DNA of 64,000 bases from Streptomyces sp. NBC_00523 (GTDB lineage Bacteria > Actinomycetota > Actinomycetes > Streptomycetales > Streptomycetaceae), in assembly GCF_036346615.1 (NCBI RefSeq), contig NZ_CP107836.1, positions 3,100,001 to 3,164,000 on the forward strand. Direction: 5' to 3'. Shown piece by piece: positions 60,395 to 63,855 of this stretch. The position numbers were made by a program, and so were the translations under genes. Position 1 is the stretch's first letter; each line of letters starts with the position of its first letter. Under the pieces are notes generated by a model. The model was not told where the DNA came from. It was given only the letters and a program-made list of their open reading frames with translations, and did not search any database.

Positions 60395-61171
60395 CTACTT
60401 CGGTTCGCGTTCGAACTGCGCCCTGGACCAGAAGTAGCCGAGGACGGTCAGACCGACGCACCAGGCCACCGCGATCCACCCGTTGTGGCCGATCTCCGTA
60501 CCGAGCAGCAGTCCGCGCAGGGTCTCGATCGCCGGGGTGAAGGGCTGGTACTCGGCGATCGGCCGGAACCAGCCGGGCATCGAGCCCAGCGGGACGAACG
60601 CGCTGGAGATGAGCGGCAGCAGGATCAGCGGCGTGGCGTTGTTGCTGGCGGCCTCCGCGTTGGGGCTGCCCAGGCCCATGCCCACGGCGATCCAGGTGAA
60701 GGCCAGGGTGAACAGGGCGAGCAGTCCGAGCGCGCCGAGCCATTCCAGGACGGTGGCGTCGGTGGACCGGAAGCCCATGGCCACCCCGACCGCGCCGACG
60801 AGGACCACGCTCATCAGCGTCCGCAGCACGCTGCCCGCGACGTGCCCGAAGAGGATCGAGCCCCGGTGGATCGCCATGGTGCGGAAGCGGGCGATGATGC
60901 CCTCGCTCATGTCCATGGAGACCGAGACGGCGGTGCCGACGGTGGTCGAGCCGATCGTCATGAGCAGGATGCCGGGCACGATGTACGCGATGTACGCGTC
61001 GCGGCCCGCGCCGCCGCTCATGGTGTCGCCGAAGATGTAGACGAACAGCAGGAGCAGCATCACCGGGGTGAGCAGCAGGTTGAGGGTGAGCGAGGGGTAG
61101 CGCCTGGCGTGCAGGAGGTCGCGGCGGAGCATCGTGGCCGAGTCGCGCACGGCGAGGGAGAGGGTACTCAT
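60395..61171 (-). CDS. ABC-2 type permease (DrrB-like)
   Basis: A 258-aa exporter permease with six helices. The N-terminal MSTLSLAVRDSATMLRRDLLHARRYPSLTLNLLLTPVMLLLLFVYIFGD is typical of DrrB-class proteins. The ABC-2 signature is seen in SSAFVPLGSMPGWFRPIAEYQPFTPAIETLRGLLLG. It overlaps the ATPase gene by ATGA (61168-61171), so the two are translationally coupled. The substrate is unknown; the class exports drugs and lipophilic compounds. Confidence 0.92.
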   Translation of the reverse strand: MSTLSLAVRDSATMLRRDLLHARRYPSLTLNLLLTPVMLLLLFVYIFGDTMSGGAGRDAYIAYIVPGILLMTIGSTTVGTAVSVSMDMSEGIIARFRTMAIHRGSILFGHVAGSVLRTLMSVVLVGAVGVAMGFRSTDATVLEWLGALGLLALFTLAFTWIAVGMGLGSPNAEAASNNATPLILLPLISSAFVPLGSMPGWFRPIAEYQPFTPAIETLRGLLLGTEIGHNGWIAVAWCVGLTVLGYFWSRAQFEREPK

Positions 61172-62160
61172 CGGACGGACTCCTTGGTCGGGGCGGGGAT
61201 GACGGCGTCGGTGCCGGATTCGGTCTCGGTGCCGGCTTCGGTCAGGGCGAAGAAGACGTCGTCCAGGTCGGGGGTGTGCACGGTGAGTTCGTCCGCCTCG
61301 ATCCCGGCGGCGTCCAGCCGGTCGAGGATGGAGCGCAGGATGCTCTGGGTACCGTCGCTGGGGAGTTGCAGGGCCAGCGCGGCATCGTCGCGGACGGCGT
61401 CGCCGCCGAGGTGGGCCGCCGCCTCCCGGTAGGCGGCCGGGTCGCTGAACCGCAGCCGGACGTGCCCGCCGGGGACGATCCGCTTCAGCTCCTCGGCGCT
61501 GCCCTCGGCCACCAGCTTCCCGTTGTGCAGGACGGCGATGCGGTCGGCGAGTTCGTCGGCCTCTTCCAGGTACTGGGTGGTGAGGAAGACGGTCACCCCG
61601 TCGCCGACCAGGCCGCGGATCATCTGCCACATGCCGTGCCGGCTGCGCGGGTCGAGCCCGGTGGTCGGCTCGTCCAGGAAGATGATGCGCGGGTTCCCGA
61701 CGAGGGTCATCGCGATGTCGAGGCGGCGCTTCATGCCGCCGGAGTAGGTGGAGGCGGGCTTCTTCGCCGCCTCCGTGAGGTCGAAGCGCTCAAGGAGCTC
61801 CGCGGTGACGCGCCGCCCCTCGGCCTTCGGCAGGTGGTGCAGGTCCGCCATCAGGAGCAGGTTCTCCTCGCCGGTGATCAGCCCGTCGACGGCGGAGAAC
61901 TGCCCGGTGACGCCGATGGCGGCGCGTACCGCCTGCGCGTCGGTGGCCAGGTCGTGGCCCCCGACGCTGATCGCGCCGGACCCTTGGCCGGGTGGGATGA
62001 GCGTGGAGAGGATCTTGACGGCGGTCGTCTTGCCCGCGCCGTTCGGGCCGAGCAGCGCGAACACCGTTCCGGCCGGGATGCTGAGGTCGATCCCGTCGAG
62101 CACGGTCTTCTCGCCGTACGCCTTGCGCAGTCCGTTCGCCGCGATGGCCGGGTTCGTCAT
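61168..62160 (-). CDS. ABC transporter ATP-binding protein (DrrA family)
   Basis: A 330-aa ATPase. Walker A GPNGAGKTTAV, Q-loop (GVTGQFSAVDG), signature YSGGMKRRLD, Walker B RIIFLDEPTTGLD and switch His-loop area (TVFLTTQYLEEADELAD, with Q in place of H: T-T-Q-Y-L-E-E is the DrrA form). The DrrA-specific C-terminal domain includes the DLDDVFFALTEAG element required for dimer function. The gene lies 41 nt after the DUF4097 gene and is coupled to the permease. Confidence 0.94.
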   Translation of the reverse strand: MTNPAIAANGLRKAYGEKTVLDGIDLSIPAGTVFALLGPNGAGKTTAVKILSTLIPPGQGSGAISVGGHDLATDAQAVRAAIGVTGQFSAVDGLITGEENLLLMADLHHLPKAEGRRVTAELLERFDLTEAAKKPASTYSGGMKRRLDIAMTLVGNPRIIFLDEPTTGLDPRSRHGMWQMIRGLVGDGVTVFLTTQYLEEADELADRIAVLHNGKLVAEGSAEELKRIVPGGHVRLRFSDPAAYREAAAHLGGDAVRDDAALALQLPSDGTQSILRSILDRLDAAGIEADELTVHTPDLDDVFFALTEAGTETESGTDAVIPAPTKESVR

Positions 62161-62201: not shown

Positions 62202-62870
62202 TCAGAGGCTGCGGGCGGTGATGTCGCCCTTGGTGGTGGTCGCCCGGATGGTCAGGACGGGTGCGCCGTCGTTCATCAGGGCGTTGTCGATGCGGCCGAG
62301 GACGGTGCCCGCGTCGAGCACGGCCGGGACGCCGCGCGCCGCGCCGACGGTGATGTCGCCCAGCTGGGTGCTGAGGGTGAGCTCACCGCGGGTGGCCTCC
62401 TCGACGGTCACGTCGCCGCGCTGGGTGCTGAGGTCGCCGGGCCCGGTGAGGCGGCGGATGATCACGGCGCCGTCGTGCGCGGAGATCCGGGCGCCGGCGG
62501 CCTCGTCCACCTTGACGGAGCGGTAGCCGCCCTCGAAGACGATGTCGCCGAGGCGTCCGACGCCCCGGAACTCGGCGGCGCCGGCCTTCGCCTCGACGTG
62601 CGACCCGGCGGGCAGCTGGACGGTGATCTCGACGGCCCCGGAGTCACCGAGGAGCCGGTTGCGCCCCTCCTTGGCGGCCCGGATGTCGAGGACGCCGTCG
62701 GTGTACGCGACCTCGACGCGCTCGGCGGCCTTCGCGTCGCGGCTCTTGGAGGGGTCGGCGGGCAGGACCTCGACCACGGTGTCGGCGCGGTCGGCGGCGA
62801 TGAACCGGATGAGACCGGCGGCGATGTCGACGCGGGCGGTGACGGCGGCGGGGGTTTCGAACTTCGGCAT
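62202..62870 (-). CDS. DUF4097 beta-strand repeat protein
   Basis: A 222-aa protein built from short beta repeats of the adhesin-like DUF4097/DUF2807 kind. Recurrent G-D-(I/V)-x-(V/F) steps are visible (GRLGDIVFEGG, QRGDVTVEEA, QLGDITVGAA, TKGDITARSL). There is no signal peptide or membrane helix, so it should be cytosolic. It is the first gene of the operon with the DrrAB-like exporter, a combination common in Streptomyces whose logic is unknown. It is divergent from the HTH regulator gene. Confidence 0.88.
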   Translation of the reverse strand: MPKFETPAAVTARVDIAAGLIRFIAADRADTVVEVLPADPSKSRDAKAAERVEVAYTDGVLDIRAAKEGRNRLLGDSGAVEITVQLPAGSHVEAKAGAAEFRGVGRLGDIVFEGGYRSVKVDEAAGARISAHDGAVIIRRLTGPGDLSTQRGDVTVEEATRGELTLSTQLGDITVGAARGVPAVLDAGTVLGRIDNALMNDGAPVLTIRATTTKGDITARSL

Positions 62871-62891
62871 GGTGCGCTCCTTCTGGGGTGA

Positions 62892-62912
62892 CGCGAACCG
62901 GAGTGGTTCGCG
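62892..62912 (-). repeat. Inverted repeat in the leader of the DUF4097-ABC operon
   Basis: CGCGAACC-GGAGT-GGTTCGCG, perfect 8-bp arms with a 5-nt loop. It lies between the predicted promoter and the start codon of DUF4097, so it would fold in the mRNA leader. It may stabilise the transcript, attenuate it or act as a second operator. Confidence 0.55.
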
Positions 62913-62928
62913 CTTTCCGATGAGAGAA

Positions 62929-62957
62929 ACGCTACGTTGCGTTCATGAGTCCGGCAA
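62929..62957 (-). promoter_or_regulatory. Predicted promoter of the DUF4097-ABC operon
   Basis: On the minus strand, TTGCCG (62952-62957) is followed after 17 nt by TAGCGT (62929-62934), a fair vegetative-type promoter. The -35 box lies in the palindrome described next. Confidence 0.55.
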
Positions 62958-62969
62958 CACACTTGTTGC
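62954..62969. promoter_or_regulatory. Operator-like palindrome over the leftward -35 box
   Basis: GCAACA-CACT-TGTTGC, perfect 6-bp arms. It overlaps the -35 of the leftward promoter. It shares the GCAAC/GTTGC core with the second site at 63045-63056. Confidence 0.65.
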
Positions 62970-63044
62970 ATCAGATGCGCGTAACCGCACGTCAAAACAG
63001 AGAAGTTGGAGCAATGAGCTCTGAGATAACGCAACGACCGCCTC

Positions 63045-63082
63045 GCAACTCGTTGCAATGGGCTGTCAGCGAACGCTATAGT
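63045..63082 (+). promoter_or_regulatory. Predicted promoter and operator of the HTH regulator gene
   Basis: TTGCAA (63053-63058) and TATAGT (63077-63082), 18-nt spacing, form a good promoter. The palindrome GCAAC-TC-GTTGC (63045-63056) covers the -35 box. A further GCAAC lies at 63031-63035. Placement suggests that the gene product represses its own synthesis. Confidence 0.65.
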
Positions 63083-63132
63083 CGGCCCACCGGTCACCGC
63101 ACGGCCGGGCCCGCGCCACGAAGGAGTACGCG

Positions 63133-63855
63133 ATGCCGGGAGGCAGGCTCAGCCAGCAGGAACGCCGCCAGATCGGCCGGGGCCTGGCCGACGGACTGGC
63201 CTACGCCGAGATCGCCCGGCAGCTGGACCGTCCCACCTCGACCATCACCCGCGAGGTGACGCGCAACGGCGGCCCCGCCGGCTACCGCGCCGACGTCGCC
63301 CACCGCACCGCCGAGCAGCGCGCCCACCGCCGGAAGAACCCCGCGCCCCGCGACGCGCGCCCGGACCCGCAGCCCCACGGCCGGGACGCCGAGGCGGTGC
63401 ACGCGTACGAGGAGATGTTCACGACGGCCATGACGGCCTCGGGCGCCCCCCAGATGATGTCGAGGGTCCTCGCGGCCCTGACCCTCAGCGACACCGGCAG
63501 CCTGACCGCCGGCGAGCTCGCCGCGCACCTGAAGGTCAGCCCGGCCTCCGTGTCCAAGGCGGTCGCGTTCCTGGAGACCCAGAGCATGGTCCGCCGCGAG
63601 CGCGAGGGCCGCCGGGAACGCTATGTCGTCGACGACGAGCTCATGCACGAGTCGATGATGGCGAGCGCCCACTCCACCGCCCAGCTCGCCGAGACCGCCC
63701 GCAAGGGCGTCCCCGTCCTGGGCGCGGACACGGCGGCGGGCACCCGACTGGAGAACATGGCCCGCTACCTGGACTTCGTCTCCGAATCGATAGCCCGAGC
63801 CGCCGAACAGGCCCGGGCCATCCTGCACACCAAGGCCCCTGACCCGGGGCCCTGA
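63133..63855 (+). CDS. Two-HTH regulator (IS30-like HTH + MarR/GbsR-like domain)
   Basis: A 240-aa DNA-binding protein. Residues about 5-45 are an HTH_38-type helix-turn-helix like that of IS30 transposases (GRLSQQERRQIGRGLADGLAYAEIARQLDRPTSTITREVTRNGG). Residues about 95-210 are a winged helix of the MarR/GbsR kind (LTAGELAAHLKVSPASVSKAVAFLETQSMVRREREGRRERYVV). A terminal helix contains the dimer region. It is divergent from the DUF4097-ABC operon and likely controls that operon and itself through the GCAAC/GTTGC sites. Confidence 0.88.
   Translation: MPGGRLSQQERRQIGRGLADGLAYAEIARQLDRPTSTITREVTRNGGPAGYRADVAHRTAEQRAHRRKNPAPRDARPDPQPHGRDAEAVHAYEEMFTTAMTASGAPQMMSRVLAALTLSDTGSLTAGELAAHLKVSPASVSKAVAFLETQSMVRREREGRRERYVVDDELMHESMMASAHSTAQLAETARKGVPVLGADTAAGTRLENMARYLDFVSESIARAAEQARAILHTKAPDPGP

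Follow-up and report, generated by a model that had tools for sequence, protein, structure and literature searches.

What controls a DUF4097-ABC exporter operon and the regulator gene that diverges from it was the question raised by a 262-nt intergenic region in the window, that is, the whole stretch of 64,000 nucleotides that was analysed. In the original prediction, mirror-image promoters were described, each with a GCAAC/GTTGC palindrome over its −35 box, and a regulator with two helix-turn-helix (HTH) domains would control both the exporter operon and itself. The reading preferred here, to which we assign a probability of about 0.6, is that of a local repressor of itself and of the exporter, in which a domesticated transposase domain reads transposon-end-like boxes.

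Regulators were located at 129 loci. After removal of four partial matches, 16 loci in which DUF4097 gave no hit, five duplicates and L040 (partial DUF hit), 103 non-redundant orthologous intergenic regions were aligned; most ortholog loci were high-ranking entries of the match lists. A divergent DUF4097 gene was found in 109 of 115 examined ortholog loci (at least 60% identity, five duplicates included). One ortholog at 69% identity (L033, G276:C959) had no DUF4097 hit, and its control region, by eye, passes from E0/E1 nearly directly to E6 (boxes as in the table), E2 to E5 being absent as though the operator core went with the exporter. In two close orthologs (L070 and L110, 66-68% identity) the control region is retained and a hydrolase gene of the beta-lactamase family replaces the exporter; the family was called by Pfam for L110 and by eye for L070.

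Sigma-70-type −35 and −10 boxes, 16-18 nt apart, were found for both predicted promoters on the basis of conservation. The rightward promoter kept the TTG of its −35 and the TA...T of its −10 in 103/103 orthologs each, and the leftward promoter kept them in 100/103 and 103/103, so that the two divergent promoters held with their determinants in 100 to 103 of the 103 regions. Leftward, the promoter spanned 29 nt in 100/103 orthologs; rightward, it spanned 30 nt in 95/103 and 29 nt in 8/103. A promoter scan of 62800-63200 gave the rightward TTGCAA-N18-TATAGT as the sole promoter above threshold and missed the leftward one. A middle promoter between E2 and E3 was looked for by eye and rejected.

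The palindromes GCAACACACTTGTTGC (62954-62969) and GCAACTCGTTGC (63045-63056) were present as originally written and were the sole two GCAAC-N0-8-GTTGC matches in 64 kb, with 0.42 expected. Since at least two such matches occurred in 10 of 100 window shuffles, their number alone is unremarkable. The left palindrome had both arms exact in 46/103 orthologs (TTGC arm 97/103, GCAA arm 75/103) and is thus conserved in outline. The left arm of the right palindrome, GCAAC at 63045-63049, occurred in 2/103, namely the window and one close relative; the right palindrome is therefore a local coincidence, and a matching palindrome over each −35 is unsupported as the operator. The conserved element over the right −35 was instead CGTTGCAATG (exact in 70/103). 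Comparison of the sites in front of orthologous pairs, proposed earlier as a check, thus upheld the promoters, the outline of the left palindrome and the extra GCAAC/GTTGC copies noted near 62936 and 63031, and went against the right palindrome. These extra copies were among the most conserved bases, above both palindromes: GTTGC at 62936-62940 was conserved at 99-100%, and AAnGCAA at 63028-63034 at 100% except for the C/T position 63030 (71% C). Mirror symmetry was approximate overall and exact for the 9-mers CGTTGCGTT (62935-62943) and AACGCAACG (63028-63036).

The first description had overlooked the direct repetition of TTGCAA at 43-45 bp, a third box (E3, 63006-63016) and TTTC-N8-GAAA (E0, 62914-62929). 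The composite direct repeat consists of TTGCAA followed by AAYGC starting 19 nt on; in the window its copies begin at 63007 and 63051, a pitch of 44. The pitch was 43-45 nt in 102/103 orthologs and 35 in one, the distance from E1 to E3 was 71-73 nt in 103/103, and 62914-63036 spanned 122-124 nt in 103/103. A small conserved ORF behind this rigid spacing was rejected, as no frame was open in all 103 regions. In E0, TTTC was conserved at 99-100% and GAAA at 91-100%, and the outer and inner arm bases at 51-83% (103 orthologs). In E3 the left half is decayed, both in the window and in close relatives, with GTTGGAGCAATG in place of TCGTTGCAACG (63005-63017); GCACGT likewise stands where GCAGGT is expected.

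Table. Positions in the window of the genes, domains, predicted promoters and conserved boxes.
Feature	Position	Strand	Basis
ABC-2 permease; 4-nt overlap with the ATPase gene	60395-61171	-	PF01061, translation
ABC ATPase, DrrA-like	61168-62160	-	TIGR01188 305.2 bits, just below cut-off 312.45
DUF4097 (toastrack) protein, gene 1 of the leftward operon	62202-62870	-	Pfam 23.6 bits vs cut-off 22.9
E0: TTTC-N8-GAAA, within a weaker consensus GTTTCC-N6-GGAAAC; centre close to the predicted leftward start	62913-62930		orthologs
E1: AAcGCTACGTTGCgTT, overlying the leftward −10, with AACGCAACG on the reverse complement	62928-62943		core GCTACGTTGC exact 98/103
Predicted leftward promoter: −35 TTGCCG 62957-62952, −10 TAGCGT 62934-62929, spacer 17	62929-62957	-	ortholog conservation
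E2: GCAAC-N6-GTTGC over the leftward −35 (first palindrome of the original prediction)	62954-62969		exact 46/103
GCAGGTcA conserved block; window version GCACGTCA	62987-62994		ortholog alignment
E3: ortholog consensus TCGTTGCAACGG	63006-63017		TTGCAA 82/103; best match to IS30 end profile
E4: TAACGCAACG; E3+E4 = composite direct repeat copy 1	63027-63036		AACGCAA 73, AATGCAA 30 of 103
E5: CGTTGCAATG over the rightward −35; E5+E6 = composite copy 2	63051-63060		TTGCAA 95/103
Predicted rightward promoter: −35 TTGCAA 63053-63058, −10 TATAGT 63077-63082, spacer 18	63053-63082	+	promoter scan, ortholog conservation
E6: consensus GTGAACGCTATgcT, spacer and −10 of the rightward promoter	63069-63082		GAACGCTA exact 96/103
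Two-HTH regulator, 240 aa, IS30-type HTH_38 + MarR-like winged helix	63133-63855	+	Pfam, AF2
Regulator residues 1-68, with homology to the DNA-binding N-terminus of IS30-family transposases	63133-63336	+	plasmid matches, alignments
Predicted recognition helix of the IS30-type HTH, residues 35-44	63235-63264	+	alignment, AF2 model
MarR_2 winged-helix match, residues 110-162	63460-63618	+	Pfam, AF2, Foldseek

The ATG of the regulator gene is preceded by GAAGGAG at 63120-63126. In Pfam, HTH_38 matched residues 5-45 of the window's regulator, and PF12802 and PF01047 both exceeded their cut-offs. Of 183 homologs, 47 were picked for diversity and aligned; HTH_38 and MarR were both matched in 47/47 (E up to 1e-3 for MarR), which bears out the IS30-like plus MarR-like architecture claimed from the start. 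Residues S36, T37, R40, E41 and R44 of the recognition helix were invariant across these 47 proteins, and residues of the MarR part were also well conserved. The AF2 model (mean pLDDT 92.8, pTM 0.64) showed the IS30-type domain, a low-confidence linker near residues 70-80 and then the MarR-like half. Foldseek returned 4nb5, 1ku9 and 5jbr (E < 0.001, alignments of about 145 columns), 4nb5 being the best solved fold match to this half with a TM-score of 0.82 by target length and 18% identity over the aligned part; a sequence search of the PDB gave weak matches alone (best E 0.0066). The protein of this best match is Rv0678, also named MmpR5; unlike the window's regulator it is without an IS30 domain, and a link from it to the ligand of the window's exporter would be by analogy only. 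Rv0678 is PDB entry 4NB5, and its probable ligand is described as a fatty-acid glycerol ester (PMC10156607, in part). The architecture is no one-off, as it was found in 24/148 actinomycete genomes and 10/81 genera (matches at E up to 1e-25). One genome (G208) holds two equal-scoring copies near both chromosome ends (C1:23275-23979 and 9053556-9054260), presumably in terminal inverted repeats.

Regulator residues 1-70 matched 405 plasmid records (E up to 1e-3, regulator homologs included), and of 30 rows spread over this ranking 13 were annotated as IS30 transposase, at 41-49% identity. The similarity extends beyond the HTH into the next helix, and a recognition-helix consensus is common to both groups. 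IS30-family transposases share this N-terminal HTH region and ends with a TCGTNGCAAC core, and differ in that the regulator is without a catalytic domain match and has the MarR half in its place: a search for the DDE catalytic core in the regulator gave 17.6 bits for NF033563 against a cut-off of 80, the match stopped at residue 70, and the remainder was MarR-like. The HTH of IS30 reportedly binds the ends of the element (Nagy et al. 2004).

That IS30 ends carry the operator word was predicted before any end was examined, from the end of IS30 itself, which presumably holds the word AACGCAAC. Ends were taken as the best inverted repeats around transposase genes, giving 46 ends from 23 elements, of which 36 (18 elements) entered the matrix; the worst fifth of ends was skipped in each round of the fit. 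Outside the matrix were L206, L213, L214, L216 and L221; a matching core was later found in L213, L214 and L216, the ends of L213 and L214 being fixed by copy comparison. The consensus of the 36 ends was GGnnTCAAnnGGTCGTnGCAACAC, with GCAAC (30/36) or GCGAC (6/36) as its core. The exact operator word TCGTTGCAAC occurred in 5/36 ends and AACGCAAC in 2/36, so that the prediction came true for the core and not for the word. For the element L233/L235, whose transposase is the best match to the regulator N-terminus and likewise starts with MPG.RL, copy comparison gave the ends GTTGTTGCAAG and GTAGTTGCAAG; the ends of elements with the best N-terminal match and this start have GTTGCAAG or GTTGCACC. 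A held-out test was carried out on 24 of 30 loci, of which four had no transposase located, one was in the wrong frame, four repeated matrix elements and 15 were held out (one of these, L268, is nearly identical to one matrix element). The matrix matched both ends in 15/15 held-out elements, with 28/30 ends above all 100 shuffles; GCAAC was present at both ends in 11/15, the others having GCAAG (1), GCAC (1) or GCGA (2).

IS30 ends share the operator core TCGTNGCAAC. Along the ortholog operator profile, the 14-column core of the ends fitted best over E3 (63006-63019). None of 4000 GC-matched 14-mers from IS loci fitted the profile as well (0/4000), and column permutation gave p ~0.0002 for 14 columns, 0.001 for 12 and 0.006 for the whole 25. 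A single-sequence scan with the IS30-end matrix was much weaker, 8/250 window tiles equalling or beating the operator region; with this matrix, 84/103 orthologs and 6/29 paralogs beat their own shuffles. The outer TTCAA element of IS30 ends had no conserved counterpart in the 103-ortholog operator profile.

As paralogs we took 29 non-redundant relatives of the regulator, at 42-54% identity, that have no DUF4097 gene beside them. A pair of TTGCAA boxes spaced at 42-47 nt was present in the upstream 260 nt of 23/29, vs 4/14500 Markov resamplings; since the pair is kept where DUF4097 is lacking, the operator follows the regulator and not the target. The TTGCAA pair was used for this tally because the E3E4 matrix often matches the E5E6 site in paralogs. 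Partner genes were Beta-lactamase-family hydrolases (11), P450 (2), ABC ATPase (2) and single cases of SDR, DUF885, DUF1048 and DUF418; two partners lay outside the Pfam scan, and eight had no Pfam match. The longest ORF was taken as the partner, and some of these eight may be in wrong frames. E1 was above all 100 shuffles in 22/29 paralogs, E2 in 2/29, E0 in 0/29 and the GCAGGT block in 1/29, so that the last three appear special to the exporter group. The element common to orthologs and paralogs is the TTGCAA direct-repeat pair, and the palindromes E0 and E2 are present in orthologs. A second regulator may bind E0 and the GCAGGTcA block, which are conserved in the DUF4097 group and not in the paralogs.

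MarR-only relatives, which matched in 84/101 Streptomyces genomes, served as a natural control with their best 30 loci. Upstream, the palindrome TTCACAA-N2-TTGTGAA was found in 25/30 and TTGCAA in 0/30; GCAAC or GTTGC occurred somewhere in 10/30 regions. A search of these 30 loci for the IS30-type domain found none (best E 0.002), seven regulator loci as positive controls giving 1e-24 or better. The TTGCAA array thus appears to go with the IS30 domain, an association that is a correlation across sequences in which the MarR-only side is essentially one orthologous group. The own genome has a MarR-only paralog at G000:C1:3462046-3462474 (L274-L303 set), divergent from an ABC ATPase gene.

According to the preferred reading, the region would be a shared operator for the regulator gene and the divergent DUF4097-ABC exporter operon, as had been predicted for both targets; two conserved promoters set in conserved boxes are most naturally read in this way. 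The regulator would be a fusion in which a domesticated HTH from a transposase of the IS30 family forms the N-terminus, and a MarR-like half, probably for dimerisation and small-molecule binding, the C-terminus. The domain of IS30 origin would read the TTGCAA/GCAAC-core boxes (E1, E3, E4, E5), which resemble the core of the IS30 terminal inverted repeat; TTGCAA over a −35 is in part promoter sequence. Boxes over the −35 and −10 of both promoters would shut out RNA polymerase, their position inside or over the promoters suggesting repression both ways. The fixed pitch suggests cooperative binding, which the 44-bp repeat would provide, and the MarR-like half points to a small molecule as the releasing signal. 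By analogy, a lipophilic or envelope-active compound may free the protein, and the exporter would then be induced.

That the likeness to IS30 ends is coincidental is quite conceivable, if on the whole improbable: the HTH would be of IS30 ancestry and have changed its specificity long since, and a TTGCAA palindrome is a common type of operator and of −35 box. The weak single-sequence scans, the 6/29 paralogs that beat their shuffles, the missing outer TTCAA part, the exact TCGTTGCAAC in just 5/36 ends and a paralog motif, CATTGCAATG, that deviates from GCAAC are all consistent with coincidence. The profile tests (0/4000, p ~0.0002) argue against it, as do the GTTGCAAG or GTTGCACC ends of precisely those elements whose transposases match the N-terminus best and start with MPG.RL, and the recognition-helix consensus common to regulator and IS30.

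A conventional MarR operator, in which the MarR winged-helix dimer reads the palindromes E2 and E0 and the IS30-type HTH is accessory or structural, was considered unlikely. Palindromic sites over MarR promoters are standard, as in SAV4189 with three TTGCCYKHRSCAA palindromes (PMC6036246, in part); E2 and E0 are palindromes, and the MarR-part residues are well conserved. In paralogs, however, these two boxes beat all shuffles in 2/29 and 0/29, against 23/29 for the TTGCAA pair; moreover, recognition-helix residues of HTH_38 do not vary among the 47 aligned proteins and the operator of the MarR-only relatives is unlike this one. More doubtful again is an activator or dual regulator for which E3/E4 would be the activation site, the promoter boxes merely tuning. 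E3/E4 do lie upstream of the predicted rightward promoter, around positions −82 to −54 relative to the predicted start, with a conserved fixed pitch, and a MarR protein can act positively, SAV4189 raising avermectin output via aveR, indirectly (PMC6036246, in part). However, E1, E2, E5 and E6 lie between or over the −35 and −10 boxes of the two promoters, where a repressor would be expected to bind, and the promoter boxes are near consensus.

MarR regulators that control efflux genes are a known kind. SAV4189 from Streptomyces avermitilis is comparable in that it represses its own gene, the promoter of which is overlain by three palindromic sites, and controls an efflux gene; it differs, as far as the available part of PMC6036246 describes it, in being MarR only (171 aa), in its operator and in an efflux gene that is co-transcribed and not divergent. 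Another MarR protein, SCO7424, is treated in PMC12838073 (in part). The lunaemycin cluster contains the same three-gene exporter type, DUF4097-DrrA-permease, as the window, with the ATPase and permease assigned to drug resistance and the DUF4097 protein to unknown function; unlike here, the genes lie inside a biosynthetic cluster, and the available part of the source (PMC9866976) names no such two-HTH regulator. Toastrack domains have been linked with membrane stress (PMC11237479, in part), and in a Listeria PadR mutant a DUF4097 gene was strongly derepressed (PMC6624303, in part). By analogy, these exporter-neighbour facts hint at the kind of inducer.

For the combination of a transposase-domain fusion and a transposon-end-like operator, searches of open-licence PMC papers showed no precedent, nor did they show a paper on this family of regulators or on a bacterial repressor of IS30 origin; IS30 has 0 occurrences in the main text of PMC8987985, a review that devotes a section to the co-option of mobile elements as transcription factors. 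The human SET-transposase fusion SETMAR/Metnase also has a domesticated transposase domain that still targets the ends of its own transposon; it differs in being eukaryotic, in its element (Hsmar1) and in its partner domain (PMC8327481, in part). We propose tentatively, at somewhat less than even odds, that in actinomycetes a transposase DNA-binding domain and the transposon end that it recognised were domesticated together, the terminal-repeat core becoming the arrayed operator of a MarR-fused regulator family. If so, a regulator family was founded that switches exporters, beta-lactamase-family hydrolases and P450s, a bacterial counterpart of the transposase-derived transcription factors of animals. 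The locus is a concrete example, inexpensive to test, of how bacteria may have obtained a regulator and its operator from a transposon, and the operator signature can be used to annotate an actinomycete regulator family whose likely job is the induction of exporters and hydrolases against envelope-active compounds.

The exact composite had one other match in the own 7.5-Mb genome. A genome-wide regulon was considered and rejected: with two mismatches the composite gave 23 matches vs 29 for a reversed control, and the lack of excess points to a local regulator. A 16-bp palindrome at G000:C1:1741297 was set aside as unrelated; the gene that it precedes looks by eye like a TetR gene. The palindrome at this place, GCAACGCAACGTTGCGTTGC (L134 ~1495-1520, G000:C1:1741292-1741312), lies before the TetR-looking gene and is probably that gene's own operator.
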